NCBI GenBank assembly: GCA_025999455.1
Contig: AP024683.1
Coordinates: 193,501 to 257,500, forward strand
DNA from: Geminicoccaceae bacterium
GTDB lineage: Bacteria > Pseudomonadota > Alphaproteobacteria > Geminicoccales > Geminicoccaceae
Direction: 5' to 3'
Length of the DNA: 64,000 nt
In this document: positions 33,793 through 38,612 of the stretch, in pieces
Layout of the letters: the number at the start of each line of letters is the position of its first letter
Numbering within the stretch: the stretch's first letter is position 1
Notes under the pieces: model-generated
Told to the model about the DNA's origin: nothing
What the model saw: only the letters and a program-made list of their open reading frames with translations
Databases searched by the model: none
Position numbers and translations under genes: made by a program

Positions 33793-34635
33793 TCATTCGG
33801 CGGGTCGAGCGGCCGATTCGAGATTGGCGACCCGGGTGGCGGGCTCGCCGACCTTCGCGAACTTCTTCTGGGCTTCGACGACCCAAGCTTCGAACTCCTC
33901 TTTCGGCACCGCCTTGACGGCGATCGGCATGAAGCCGTGCCGCAGCCCGCACAGCTCCGAGCATTGCCCGTAATAATTGCCCGGCTCGTTGATGTAGAGC
34001 CACACTTCGTTGAGCCGCCCGGGCACGGCGTCGATCTTCACACCGAAGGCCGGCACGGTCCAGGCGTGGATGACGTCGGACGCGGTCACCTGCAATTTGA
34101 CGTACGTCTTGGTGGGCAGCACGACGAGATTGTCGGTGTCGAGCAGGCGATGCTGCCCGGGCTTGAGCTCGGAATCGTCGAGCGCCAAGGCGTCGAAGGT
34201 GAAGTTGCCGTTGTCGGGGTACTCGTACGTCCAGAGCCACTGCTTGCCGATCGCCTTGACCGTCAGCTCGGTCTTGGGAAGGACGTCCTGGTAGTAGAGG
34301 AGCTTGAACGAGGGAACGGCGATGATGACGAGGATCAGGACCGGGACTGCCGTCCACACGACCTCGAGAGCCGTGTTGTGGGACTGCTTCGACGGTACCG
34401 GGTTCCGGTCCTCGCGGAACCGCCAACAAGTGTAGAGGAGGAGCACCAGAACGAAGATGCAGATGAACGTGATGATGCCGAGGAGCAGACCGTGGAAGCT
34501 CGCGATCCGCTCCATGATCGGCGTCGCCGCCGGCTGCAGGCCGAGCTGCCAGGGGCTCGGCGCTGCGGCCATCGCCGGGCCACCGAGAAGGAGGGCCGCG
34601 AGCGCGGCCATCGAGCTTTTGAGCCTCGCGGTCAT
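33793..34635 (-). CDS. ctaC: Cytochrome c oxidase subunit II
   Basis: A 280-residue subunit II. A cleavable signal peptide (MTARLKSSMAALAALLLGGPAMAAA, shown here only by its extent, residues 1-25) is followed by two transmembrane helices and a periplasmic cupredoxin domain. The CuA site is visible: the first His in SDVIHAWTVPAFG, and GQCSELCGLRHGFMP with the two Cys, Glu, His and Met ligands. WLWTYEYPD is the aromatic electron-entry patch. It opens the oxidase operon and the ATG at 34635 faces a 271-base divergent region. Confidence 0.98.
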   Translation of the reverse strand: MTARLKSSMAALAALLLGGPAMAAAPSPWQLGLQPAATPIMERIASFHGLLLGIITFICIFVLVLLLYTCWRFREDRNPVPSKQSHNTALEVVWTAVPVLILVIIAVPSFKLLYYQDVLPKTELTVKAIGKQWLWTYEYPDNGNFTFDALALDDSELKPGQHRLLDTDNLVVLPTKTYVKLQVTASDVIHAWTVPAFGVKIDAVPGRLNEVWLYINEPGNYYGQCSELCGLRHGFMPIAVKAVPKEEFEAWVVEAQKKFAKVGEPATRVANLESAARPAE

Positions 34636-34707: not shown

Positions 34708-34857
34708 GGAAGGCAGGATAAGGGGCCGACCGGACCACCGCGCGTGACACATTGTCGCAAAAACAGCGTTTTCGGAGAGAGGGTTAGCTCGGGTGGGAGG
34801 GTTTCGGGGCCGACCGTTAACCTCTTCTTGAAGGGTCGGGGATCAAAAGGAGGGCGC

Positions 34858-34877
34858 AACCGAGCCGAGGCTCGGTT
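34858..34877. promoter_or_regulatory. 20-bp perfect palindrome upstream of the periplasmic/GGDEF-EAL pair
   Basis: AACCGAGCC and GGCTCGGTT flank GA, ending 29 bases before the ATG at 34907. With a 2-base centre it is better read as a protein-binding operator than an RNA hairpin. About 25 bases further upstream TTAACCTCTTCTTGA resembles the CtrA pattern TTAA-N7-TTAA with one mismatch. Binding proteins are unknown. Confidence 0.35.
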
Positions 34878-34906: not shown

Positions 34907-35407
34907 ATGCGCTCGCTGGTCGCGCTCTTCCTCGCGCTCGCCATGGCCGCGATCCCCGCCGAGGGGAGCGAGCTCCCGAACCCCACGGGCCGCCCCATCC
35001 TCGAGATCACGGGGGCGATCGGGCGAACCAACGCGCCCGGCAAGGCACTCTTCGATCTTCCGCTCCTCGAATCGCTCGGGATGCGCGAGCTCGTGACGAT
35101 CACGCCCTGGACGGAGGGGGAGCAGCGCTTCTCCGGGATCGATCCGCGAGCGCTCCTGGCGACGGTCGAAGCGCGCGGCAAAGAGCTCGAGGCCACCGCA
35201 CTCGACGGCTATCGCGTCGTGATCCCGGTCGAGGACCTCCAGCGCTTTCCCATGTTGCTCGCGACCCGGCGGGACGGCCGGCCGATGCCGGTCCGCGAGC
35301 GCGGGCCCCTCTGGCTCGTCTATCCCTGGAGCTCGCACCCCGAAACGGCCGACCAGCCCTATCGCGGTCGGGCCATCTGGCAGCTCCGGTCCATCGTCGT
35401 GCGTTGA
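34907..35407 (+). CDS. Periplasmic protein with oxidoreductase molybdopterin-binding-like (SUOX) fold
   Basis: A 166-residue exported protein. A signal peptide (SLVALFLALAMAAIPAEG) precedes a domain with features of the molybdopterin-binding fold of sulfite-oxidase-like proteins: ILEITGAIGR, LFDLPLLESLGMRELVTITPW, FSGIDPRALL, YRVVIPVEDLQRFP and a final GPLWLVYPWSSHPE. It lacks the cysteine that ligates molybdenum in true enzymes, so it is more likely a ligand-binding protein than an oxidoreductase. The GGDEF-EAL gene starts 34 bases later, so the protein may feed a signal to that receptor (inference). Confidence 0.75.
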   Translation: MRSLVALFLALAMAAIPAEGSELPNPTGRPILEITGAIGRTNAPGKALFDLPLLESLGMRELVTITPWTEGEQRFSGIDPRALLATVEARGKELEATALDGYRVVIPVEDLQRFPMLLATRRDGRPMPVRERGPLWLVYPWSSHPETADQPYRGRAIWQLRSIVVR

Positions 35408-35440
35408 GAGGCCGGTGCGGCACCGACGGATCCAGCGGTC

Positions 35441-37777
35441 GTGGAACGCCGTCGCCTCGGGCTCGTCCTGCTCGCCGCGCTGTGCTTCGCGGCAGCACTC
35501 CTGGCTCAGGTCGGGCTCCTCCGTGAGCATCGCGCCTTCGATCTCGAGGAAACCTTGCGATCGGGCTGGTTCGCCAGCCGGACCGAGGCGCACCTGTTGC
35601 GCTTCGCTTCGACCCTCGAGCGGTTCGCGGCGCGTGGCGAGCCGGATCGGGAGAGCTTCCACGAGCAGGTCGACGTCCTCCTGCTCGCGGTTCGTCGGCT
35701 CGTCCGCGAGCCGGACGGCGCGCGCGTCATGGCCGAGCCGGTGCTGGCCGAACTCGCCTTGGAGGTCGAACGCCGCCTGTTCGACTTGGAGCCCGCCTTG
35801 CTGTTCCTCGAACCCGGCGACGAGGCGGCCTACCTCGCGGTCCGCGATCGGCTCGACGAGATCCGTCGGCCGCTCGCCGAACTCGTCGCCCGCGCCTACG
35901 ACCGTTTCCTGGAGGCGGCCGCCGCTTCGGGTCGGCTCACCTCGACACTGGCCCGTGACCTCTGGATCGGCCTCGGGCTCACCGGCGCGAGCGGTCTGCT
36001 GCTCGCCGGCCTCGTCGTGAGCGCCGTCGGCGAGGCGCGGCGGGCGCGGTCGCGAGCCGACCGCGCCACGAGCGCGGCGCGCGAGGCGGAAGAGAGCTTG
36101 CGCACCTTGGTCGACGCCTTGCCGGTCGCGGTGACCGCCTTCGACGAGCGGGGCCGCCTCCTCTTCGTCAACCGTCACGCCGCGGAACTCGCGGGCATCG
36201 GCGGAGACGCCGCGGTCGCCGGCGCTGCGTCCGCCGGCGGGTTGCCGGCGGCACTGTCGGCCGGTGCCGGGCGCGACGAGCACGGCTTCCGCGAAGTCGA
36301 CCTCGACCGCCCGGGTGGACGCCGCCACCTCCTCGCCACCACCCGCCGCGTGCTGCGCGACGACGGCTCGCTCGCCCGCACCGTCCACATCGCCCTCGAC
36401 GTCACCGAACGGCGCGCGGCCGAGGAGCAACTGCGCCATCTGGCCGAGCACGACCCGCTCACGGGGCTCGCGAACCGCACCCGCTTCACCCGTGCGCTCG
36501 CGGCCGCCCTCACCCGCCCCGGGAGCCGCGTCGCCCTCCATCTCCTCGACCTCGACCGCTTCAAGGAGGTGAACGACAGCCTCGGCCATCCGGCCGGGGA
36601 CCGGCTTCTGCTCGCGGTCGCGGGACGGCTCGCCGGTGCCGCCGGGAAGAGTGCCCTGATCGCCCGGCTGGGTGGTGACGAGTTCGCCCTCTTGCAACCC
36701 GATCCTGCGAATGCCGAGGACGCCCGCCGCTTCGCAACCCGTCTCTCCGAGAGCTTGGCCCAGCCGGTCGTCACGAGCGACGGCCGGCTCCGCGTGGGCG
36801 CGAGCATCGGGATCGCCCTTGCGCCCGACCACGGGCGGACCGTGGAAGAGCTGCTCCGCCATGCCGACATCGCACTGTACCGCGCCAAGGAAGAGGCGCG
36901 GGGGAGCGTCGTTCTGTTCTCGAACGAGCTCGCCGCGGCGCGCGCCCGACGCCACCAGCTCGCGACCGCCCTCGAAACGGCCCTTCGCCAGGAAGCCCTG
37001 GAGCTGCGCTTTCAGCCGGTCTTGAGGATCGAGGATCTGCGGGTCGTCGCCTGCGAAGCGCTTTTGCGGTGGCCTGCCTGTCGCGAGCCGACCGGCATTT
37101 CCGCGGGCGAACTCGTCGCCGTCGCGGAAGAGACGGGCCTCGTGGCCCCGCTCACCGAGTGGGTCCTGAACGCCGCCTGCCGCCGAGGCCGCCTCTGGCT
37201 CGAATCCGGGAGAGCCTGTCCGGTGGCCGTCAACATCTCGATGACCCCGGCTGTCGCGGATCGGCTCGAGTCGATGGTGGACAACGCCCTCGCGAGCGCG
37301 GGGCTTCCCGCTCATCTCTTGGAGCTCGAAGTCACCGAAGGTGTGTTGATCCGCAATTTCGACCAGGCGACGGCTCTGCTCGGCCGCCTGCGCAAGCGCG
37401 GGATCAAGGTCGCGCTCGACGATTTCGGCACCGGTTACTCGGCCCTGGCCTATCTCCAGCGCTTCCCGCTCGACAAGCTCAAGATCGACCGCCGCTTCGT
37501 GGGCGAGCTCGGGAACGGACCCACGAGCCTCGCGATCGTCGACGCGGTCGTCCGGCTCGGCCACGCCCTCGACCTCGAGATCGTCGCCGAAGGCGTGGAA
37601 CGCGACGAGCAGCTCCAGCTGCTCCGAAGCGTGGGCTGCGATCTCGCCCAAGGGTTTCTGCTCGGTGTTCCGGAGACCGCCGACCGGATCTCACGCCGTT
37701 TGGGAGAGACCCACGCGCACGGGCCTCTTCGCAACTCGGCGCCGCTCGTCGTCGGCCCGGCGCCCGCGCCCGCCTGA
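35441..37777 (+). CDS. Membrane GGDEF-EAL cyclic-di-GMP protein with PAS domain
   Basis: A 778-residue signalling protein beginning at GTG. An N-terminal helix and a second one near residues 170-195 enclose a helical periplasmic sensor of about 145 residues. A PAS domain (about 215-325) is next. The diguanylate cyclase domain has DPLTGLANRTRF, LDLDRFKEVNDSLGH and an intact GGDEF signature near 410; no RxxD inhibitory site precedes it. The phosphodiesterase domain has EALLRW, LELEVTEG, ALDDFGTGYSAL, LKIDRRFV and IVAEGVE, so catalytic residues look complete. It probably responds to the periplasmic protein encoded just upstream. Confidence 0.95.
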   Translation: MERRRLGLVLLAALCFAAALLAQVGLLREHRAFDLEETLRSGWFASRTEAHLLRFASTLERFAARGEPDRESFHEQVDVLLLAVRRLVREPDGARVMAEPVLAELALEVERRLFDLEPALLFLEPGDEAAYLAVRDRLDEIRRPLAELVARAYDRFLEAAAASGRLTSTLARDLWIGLGLTGASGLLLAGLVVSAVGEARRARSRADRATSAAREAEESLRTLVDALPVAVTAFDERGRLLFVNRHAAELAGIGGDAAVAGAASAGGLPAALSAGAGRDEHGFREVDLDRPGGRRHLLATTRRVLRDDGSLARTVHIALDVTERRAAEEQLRHLAEHDPLTGLANRTRFTRALAAALTRPGSRVALHLLDLDRFKEVNDSLGHPAGDRLLLAVAGRLAGAAGKSALIARLGGDEFALLQPDPANAEDARRFATRLSESLAQPVVTSDGRLRVGASIGIALAPDHGRTVEELLRHADIALYRAKEEARGSVVLFSNELAAARARRHQLATALETALRQEALELRFQPVLRIEDLRVVACEALLRWPACREPTGISAGELVAVAEETGLVAPLTEWVLNAACRRGRLWLESGRACPVAVNISMTPAVADRLESMVDNALASAGLPAHLLELEVTEGVLIRNFDQATALLGRLRKRGIKVALDDFGTGYSALAYLQRFPLDKLKIDRRFVGELGNGPTSLAIVDAVVRLGHALDLEIVAEGVERDEQLQLLRSVGCDLAQGFLLGVPETADRISRRLGETHAHGPLRNSAPLVVGPAPAPA

Positions 37778-37871: not shown

Positions 37872-38612
37872 TCACGGACAGCTCGGCCGCACCTCCTCGC
37901 GCGCGAGCGCGTGCGCCACGAGGAGAAAAAGCGCGGCCGTCTCGCTGCGCAGGATGCGACGACCGAGCCCCACCCGCACGATCCCAGGGCTCTCGGCGAG
38001 CCGACGGCGTTCGCCCGGCGCGAAGCCACCCTCCGGCCCGACCAGGAGGATGGCGTCCGAGATCCTCCCGAGGGCCGCGAGCGGCGGCTCACCCCCTTCC
38101 TCGTCGGCCACGACGACCCGCGTTCCAGGCGGGAGCCCCGCGAGCCAAACCTCGAGTTCGGTCGGGCCGCCGATCGGCGGTACGGAAAGACGCTCGCACT
38201 GCTCGGCGGCTTCGACGGCGATGGCGAGCAGCCGATCGATCCGCGCGGGCCGCACGACGGTGCGCTGGGTGAGGACGAGATCGACGGCACCGACCCCGAG
38301 CTCGACGGCCTTTTCGATCAGCCAGTCGAGCCGGTTCGGTCGGATCGGCGCGATCGCGAGCCGCGGCCCGATCGCGGGCTCGGGCGGGCGCAGACGATCG
38401 ACGATGCGGGCCTCCCCGCCGCGCCGATCGAGGCGCGTGAGCTCGGCCCACCACTCCCCGCTTTCGGCATTGAAGAGTCGGACCGGCGCGCCCGGGGCGA
38501 GGCGCAAGACGTGGCGGAGCTGGTGCACGCGATCGGCGCCGAGCTCCACGACCGCACCCCGAGCGAGCGGCCCGTCGAGGTGCAAGCGCGGCGCTCGGCC
38601 GAGGTTCCGCAT
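37872..38612 (-). CDS. rsmE: 16S rRNA (uracil(1498)-N(3))-methyltransferase
   Basis: A 246-residue SPOUT-superfamily methyltransferase methylating U1498 of 16S rRNA. An N-terminal PUA-like domain (about 1-75) with VHQLRHVLRLAPGAPVRLF is followed by the trefoil-knot domain: IRPNRLDWLIEKAVELGV, RWERLS-like AAEQCERLSVP, ILLVGPEGGFAPGE and LGRRILRSETAAL, which bind S-adenosylmethionine. The ATG at 38612 is 39 bases from the divergent ubiA start, so the two share a very short promoter region. Confidence 0.95.
   Translation of the reverse strand: MRNLGRAPRLHLDGPLARGAVVELGADRVHQLRHVLRLAPGAPVRLFNAESGEWWAELTRLDRRGGEARIVDRLRPPEPAIGPRLAIAPIRPNRLDWLIEKAVELGVGAVDLVLTQRTVVRPARIDRLLAIAVEAAEQCERLSVPPIGGPTELEVWLAGLPPGTRVVVADEEGGEPPLAALGRISDAILLVGPEGGFAPGERRRLAESPGIVRVGLGRRILRSETAALFLLVAHALAREEVRPSCP

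Follow-up and report, generated by a model that had tools for sequence, protein, structure and literature searches.

A PruR-DcpA-type gene pair, probably a pterin-responsive c-di-GMP regulator, next to cytochrome oxidase genes in Geminicoccaceae

Which signal is read by a small SUOX-fold protein that is encoded directly upstream of a GGDEF-EAL receptor? The two genes in question lie in a stretch of 64,000 nucleotides from a Geminicoccaceae bacterium (assembly GCA_025999455.1, contig AP024683.1, positions 193,501 to 257,500), here called the window; the host genome is a single contig of 3.76 Mb. The original prediction described a two-part sensory unit whose ligand is bound by the SUOX-fold protein in the periplasm, and it considered molybdate as a ligand. 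Our analysis indicates that the pair is very probably a PruR-DcpA system, i.e. a pterin-responsive regulator of cyclic di-GMP (c-di-GMP), an identity which that prediction had missed while being right in outline about the two-part unit. The PruR-DcpA system has already been published (PMC13259868, of which part of the text was available), and the pair in the window is ordinary in kind, with a few lineage-specific changes. According to this source, PruR is a periplasmic SUOX-fold pterin-binding protein without a molybdenum-ligand Cys, and its gene directly precedes that of DcpA, which has a periplasmic domain and acts both as diguanylate cyclase and as phosphodiesterase. The corresponding features of the window are as follows.

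34907..35407, plus strand: pruR homologue, predicted SUOX-fold pterin-binding protein of 166 amino acids, ATG start (open reading frame list, Pfam, PDB alignment)
35441..37777, plus strand: dcpA homologue, membrane receptor of 778 amino acids with periplasmic helical domain, PAS, GGDEF and EAL, GTG start
35441..35968, plus strand: first transmembrane segment (TM1), DcpA-type periplasmic domain and start of the second segment (TM2), amino acids 1-176 (alignment, predicted structure)
36095..36418, plus strand: PAS domain, amino acids 219-326 (Pfam)
36443..36901, plus strand: GGDEF domain with intact GGDEF motif (Pfam; motif read in the translation)
36968..37666, plus strand: EAL domain with EAL, NIS, LEVTE, DDFGTG, LKID, AEGVE and QGF motifs (Pfam; motifs by eye)

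The small protein, the receptor and a candidate pterin supply

The PruR homologue barely passes the Pfam family PF00174 (24.8 bits, cut-off 24), and an NCBIfam search assigned no family to it. Four distinct solved sequences match it, with E-values from 2e-38 to 7e-18. The best matches are 7rkb (2e-38) and 7kos/7kou (3e-37), all named Pterin Binding Protein, followed by 7kp2 (Putative Pterin Binding Protein, 6e-23) and 7kom (Oxidored_molyb domain-containing protein, 7e-18). Residue equivalences were computed from a gapless alignment to 7KOS and the residues named in PMC13259868: Tyr102 and Trp158 of the window protein correspond to Tyr104 and Trp160 of Agrobacterium tumefaciens PruR, with a spacing of 56 in both; Phe is an accepted alternative to this Tyr. 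Within the genus, PruR sequences are 75-88% identical (the 88% figure over 103 amino acids), and Tyr and Trp are retained. The N-terminus is hydrophobic when read by eye, and the protein is probably exported. It contains no Cys anywhere in its 166 amino acids and thus no molybdenum-ligand Cys, as had been supposed from the sequence. Molybdate as the ligand, in turn, was not borne out; because the pair corresponds to the published PruR-DcpA system, the ligand is likely a reduced pterin (PMC13259868).

Both open reading frames were found where the original prediction had placed them, and the periplasmic sensor, PAS, cyclase and phosphodiesterase domains that it had named in the receptor were recovered as well. 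Pfam scores are 27.4 bits for PAS_4, 140.7 for GGDEF and 205.9 for EAL; we take the motifs of the EAL domain to be catalytic. Two hydrophobic stretches (amino acids 3-21 and 174-192) flank a segment of about 150 amino acids that Pfam does not name. Among 25 of the 31 NCBIfam matches of the receptor there are only equivalogs below their cut-offs and a GGDEF domain model above its cut-off. The GTG start is supported because the proteins of three relatives from the same genus align from the same place.

The periplasmic segment aligns with that of other PruR-linked receptors, kinases included, with 18-22% identity outside the genus. An AlphaFold model of it, based on a 7-row alignment, is all-helical (mean predicted local distance difference test score, pLDDT, 84.7; predicted template modelling score, pTM, 0.69). 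A fold search with this model against the PDB gave no match at E<=0.001, the best being 4k0d at 5e-3. Six of the top ten weak matches are bacterial sensor or receptor domains, and these six include kinases that have a partner protein (QseE-QseG, LytSN-XylFII); the remaining four are helical proteins with no relation to sensing.

The dcpA homologue lies directly downstream of pruR on the same strand, separated by 33 bases, and the corresponding gaps in four other genomes (G002, G004, G005 and G011) are 19-41 bases. Judged by gene order, strand and gap, the two genes appear to form a two-gene operon with the layout of PruR-DcpA.

Homologues of pterin-pathway genes are present in the host genome. 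One is folE; the other is a PruA/FolM-like reductase, which is inferred to be a candidate for the pterin supply.

G000:C1:1765510-1766250: PruA/FolM-like reductase (locus L070)

The reductase scores 331 bits with NF006597 (cut-off 281), a model that carries only the NCBI name "SDR family oxidoreductase". Its best solved matches are 5tgd (FolM) and 5bt9 (3-oxoacyl-ACP reductase), both at 5e-64, and it keeps the motif TGX3RXG as TGGARRIG.

If pterin binding, docking and output direction are transferred from Agrobacterium, PruR would go to the periplasm and take up a small pterin there, probably a tetrahydropterin produced via FolE and the PruA-like reductase, whose gene lies at another place in the genome. 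PruR loaded with the pterin would then dock onto the helical periplasmic domain of DcpA, and the signal would pass the membrane via TM2 and the PAS linker. This would shift the balance between synthesis by the GGDEF domain and degradation by the EAL domain; if the system works as in Agrobacterium, the shift would favour degradation. Which pterin is bound is left open in the part of PMC13259868 that was available.

Occurrence of the pair and outputs of related receptors

In a first sample of 60 genomes, including the host genome, PruR matches at E<=1e-3 were found at 30 places in 19 genomes. The 24 places at E<=1e-10, the window copy among them, were examined and the remaining six were dropped. 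As the partner we considered the same-strand frame that follows directly on the PruR stop codon (in L041, 109 bases beyond). In 19 of the 24 cases the neighbour is a signalling enzyme, with GGDEF and/or EAL domains in 14 and HisKA/HATPase domains in five; the partner in L035 has GGDEF only, and the one in L041 is interrupted in the sequence read. This co-occurrence check, which the original prediction had proposed, refutes random pairing of the two genes.

Within the genus, pruR is present in four of six genomes (G000, G002, G004 and G005), and the DcpA periplasmic domain is found in exactly these four. The other two, G001 and G003 (each 99% complete), have coxB followed by rsmE and ubiA, with the pair missing between them. 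Because the two genes are present or absent jointly and the coxB-rsmE order also occurs without them, the pair has apparently been gained or lost as a whole, always at one position. The neighbours in the window are:

33793..34635, minus strand: coxB, divergent neighbour
37872..38600, minus strand: RNA methyltransferase gene, rsmE-type by Pfam PF04452, convergent neighbour

In four loci coxB is the immediate divergent neighbour of the pair: the window, G002, G005 and G011, the last of which belongs to another genus. The contig of G004 ends at the coxB side, coxB lies about 1.9 kb away in G007, and no coxB was matched in the sequence examined around the remaining PruR loci. A recently described pterin signalling pathway can thereby be placed in Geminicoccaceae, as an accessory pair beside cytochrome oxidase genes.

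When 386 genomes from the class were searched with a profile, 67 of them gave matches, at 86 places. The models were built from a few sequences; controls, which were partly training sequences, behaved as expected. Outputs were analysed for 81 of these places, the other five having been covered in detail already. The 2.9 kb that follow PruR on its strand contain a histidine kinase at 59 places, a class III cyclase at three and a GGDEF protein at one. Two further places have the periplasmic domain only, with little sequence left, and nothing was recognised at the other 16, one of them at a contig end. An output through c-di-GMP is thus rare in the class sample, yet within the family of the window it accounts for 14 of the 20 places examined.

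At the three cyclase places (L160 in G099, L144 in G140 and L149 in G392), PruR stands beside a receptor in which a periplasmic domain of the DcpA type and PAS are combined with a class III nucleotidyl cyclase (PF00211). This may represent a third output type for PruR-linked receptors. The receptor of L160 is one open frame up to the contig end; the other two are not clean, because L144 changes frame and L149 holds a run of N. No PruR match was found in the stretches examined around a second cyclase in G392 and one in G414 (near a contig end), nor around the two of 16 plasmid cyclase matches that were checked. In its available part, PMC13259868 does not list a cyclase output and names adenylate cyclase only for a quinone-regulated enzyme. 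A literature search for adenylate cyclase receptors of periplasmic pterins turned up only PMC13259868 and an unrelated genome paper, which is no proof that they are undescribed. If confirmed in intact genomes, such receptors would connect periplasmic pterins to cyclic AMP or cyclic GMP.

Two PruR-like loci have other neighbours. In L036 (G009), the gene after a PruR that keeps Tyr and Trp belongs to sulphur transport (PF04143), and no receptor was recognised. L057, one of five loci found in a scan of genome contigs for PruR, comes from a metagenome-assembled genome (MAG) of the Clostridia bacterium DTU025; this PruR-like protein lacks the Tyr, its gene overlaps a type I phosphodiesterase gene, and the locus falls outside the Proteobacteria if the MAG is clean.

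Residue changes and alternative readings

Several observations weigh against assigning the pair to PruR-DcpA. Asp100 of the window protein occupies the position of Asn102 in all four genus members that carry PruR. In the receptor, Trp43 and His51 sit where the motif WX7E is expected (WFASRTEAH in the window, WFASR[TA]EAH across the four genus members), i.e. all four have WX7H. The reductase reads YTASR, with Arg for the Lys of the YX3K described for PruA; this motif is YX3K in 21 of 27 loci of the reductase family and YX3R in the other six, which are the six members of the genus, two of them lacking pruR. Such changes could point to a different ligand or an altered docking. In addition, no partner was recognised in the scanned frames of five of the 24 strong PruR homologues (L036, L048, L050, L052 and the second copy of L044, the last examined by motif and tblastn only). 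According to PMC13259868, the great majority of PruR pairs have WX7E in the receptor, so that it is common and not required, and Asp replaces Asn102 in groups C and D of that source; it also suggests that pterin specificity may depend on this position.

We compiled a residue table of 102 PruR sequences, 82 of them with a readable receptor motif; L048, L050, L052, L044b and L057 were left out. Trp together with an acidic residue at position +8 is found in 59 of 68 pairs with an Asn-type PruR and in 3 of 14 with an Asp-type PruR (Fisher 3e-6). The acidic residue alone is present in 64/68 versus 6/14 pairs, and Glu alone in 56/68 versus 6/14 (p 0.004), so that Glu is also absent from 12 of the Asn-type pairs. 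Counted by family majority, an acidic +8 residue occurs in 25 of 26 Asn-type and two of five Asp-type families (p 0.008). The comparison is post hoc and carries no tree correction, and related sequences were counted as independent except in the family-level count. Sixteen of the 20 sequences without a readable motif are Asp-type, and for twelve of these (L210-L215 and L218-L223) no receptor was recognised downstream. The second copy of L044 is likewise Asp-type and lacks a recognised receptor. Several of these PruR-like proteins carry an additional insertion near the N-terminus, and together they may form an orphan subfamily with another role.

The co-variation of Asn or Asp with the receptor motif is a lead and not a result. 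We tentatively consider, while leaning against it, that Asp-type PruR proteins are a class with a pairing code of its own, in which Asp goes with loss of the Trp/acid motif (here His51), with different docking and maybe a different pterin, and that elsewhere the same kind of sensor half has been joined to a class III nucleotidyl cyclase. The residue pattern is more useful than the window copy itself, and PruR position 102 and receptor motif position +8 are a concrete residue pair to exchange.

A related alternative, which we regard as rather unlikely, is that the pair descends from PruR-DcpA and now has a different ligand or interface, Asp100 and His51 replacing Asn and Glu, and that its pterin is not tetrahydromonapterin. 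The constancy of Asp, His and YX3R in the genus and the contrast between Asn-type and Asp-type pairs agree with it, as does the suggested role of position 102 (PMC13259868). However, besides the post hoc nature of the pattern, four of the 14 Asp-type pairs come from one genus, and exceptions occur in both directions. Three Asp-type pairs (L186, L191 and L204) retain WX7E, and three more (L037, L038 and L042) keep Glu without Trp. L045 combines an Asn-type PruR with a receptor His, the G011 pair at the equivalent coxB site has Asn with Gln, and the Trp column of PruR is Gly in L186 and L191.

Decay of the pair, with the motif losses reflecting relaxed selection and signalling perhaps already gone, is improbable. 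It would fit the absence from two of the six genus genomes and the changed WX7E and YX3K motifs, but the four copies are open as far as read (PruR of G004 is cut by the contig end), the GGDEF and EAL motifs of the window receptor are intact, and PruR is well conserved within the genus, Tyr and Trp included.

We give still less weight to the idea that the first gene encodes a sulfite oxidase-type redox protein which binds molybdenum cofactor (Moco) or molybdate and whose redox state is read by the receptor. It does exceed the PF00174 cut-off, by 0.8 bits, and the genome carries three other PF00174 proteins in genes separate from pruR: MsrP and a SoxC-type sulfite dehydrogenase, which pass NCBIfam cut-offs, and a SorA-like paralogue below its cut-off. 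All three paralogues have an RR resembling that of twin-arginine (Tat) signals near the N-terminus, whereas PruR has none (read by eye). The PruR pocket is described as truncated and likely unable to accommodate Moco (PMC13259868). With no Cys in the protein and pterin-binding proteins as its closest solved relatives, Moco and molybdate were rejected as ligands. Finally, that two unrelated genes are neighbours by chance, for which only the low Pfam score of the first one speaks, is practically negligible and refuted by the counts, i.e. the joint presence and absence in the genus and the 19 of 24 expected neighbours against 19 GGDEF matches in the whole host genome.

Upstream region and comparison with known systems

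Two elements upstream of pruR were considered for its control.

34858..34877, no strand: palindrome AACCGAGCC-GA-GGCTCGGTT, arms of 9 bases; 29 bases separate it from the start codon of pruR
34744..34758, plus strand: GTGACACATTGTCGC block between the divergent coxB and pruR, conserved upstream of coxB

The palindrome is real, but the control of the pair by it that had been proposed found little support. None of three other pruR upstream regions (G002, G005 and G011) has a counterpart, and it was therefore rejected as a conserved operator. The window (70% GC) contains 10 palindromes with arms of at least 9 and spacers of at most 4 bases, against a mean of 4.5 and a maximum of 7 in 20 Markov simulations. 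Because palindromes are this numerous and none is found in the compared loci, it is weak evidence of regulation. Between 34600 and 38000 no sigma-70-type promoter match was found, and there is one terminator-like match, compared with a shuffle mean of 1.4.

A GTGACANATTGTCGC-like block is present upstream of coxB in all eight regions compared, the window included. Two of them belong to genomes of the same genus without pruR; another two come from another genus, on a coxB contig without a PruR match. Since it is also present where pruR is absent, the GTGACACATTGTCGC block is probably a cox element, and most simply it would be a control element of these genes; shared control of the cytochrome oxidase genes and pruR through it is possible. 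The block matches the RegR consensus, as cited in PMC5506826, at 9 of its 11 fixed positions; that paper, in its available part, found no RegA motif in its own organism, and the peaks of PMC4263372 likewise showed no strong PrrA consensus. As the two strands of the window together hold 22 matches to the loose RegR-like pattern and neither paper has a clear RegA or PrrA motif, only the conservation of the block is telling.

Among known systems, A. tumefaciens PruR-DcpA (PMC13259868) shares with the window pair the order of the two genes, a Cys-less SUOX-fold protein of about 170 amino acids, the Tyr and Trp of the pterin site, a periplasmic domain between two transmembrane segments, GGDEF and EAL domains, and a PruA-like reductase encoded in the genome. 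Unlike it, the window has Asp for Asn102, WX7H for WX7E and, in the reductase, YX3R for YX3K, and its pair is divergent from coxB; the PAS domain before GGDEF is not mentioned for DcpA in the available part of that source. In the sulfite oxidase/MsrP (YedY) family, PF00174 is shared, and these proteins hold Moco via a Cys (PMC13259868) that is missing from the window PruR. Vibrio cholerae PruR (PDB 7KP2, so named in PMC13259868) belongs to the same family and has the same pterin site, with a more distant sequence (E 6e-23). The PruR-DTB systems (PMC13259868) share PruR and the DcpA-type periplasmic domain, and their output is a histidine kinase instead.

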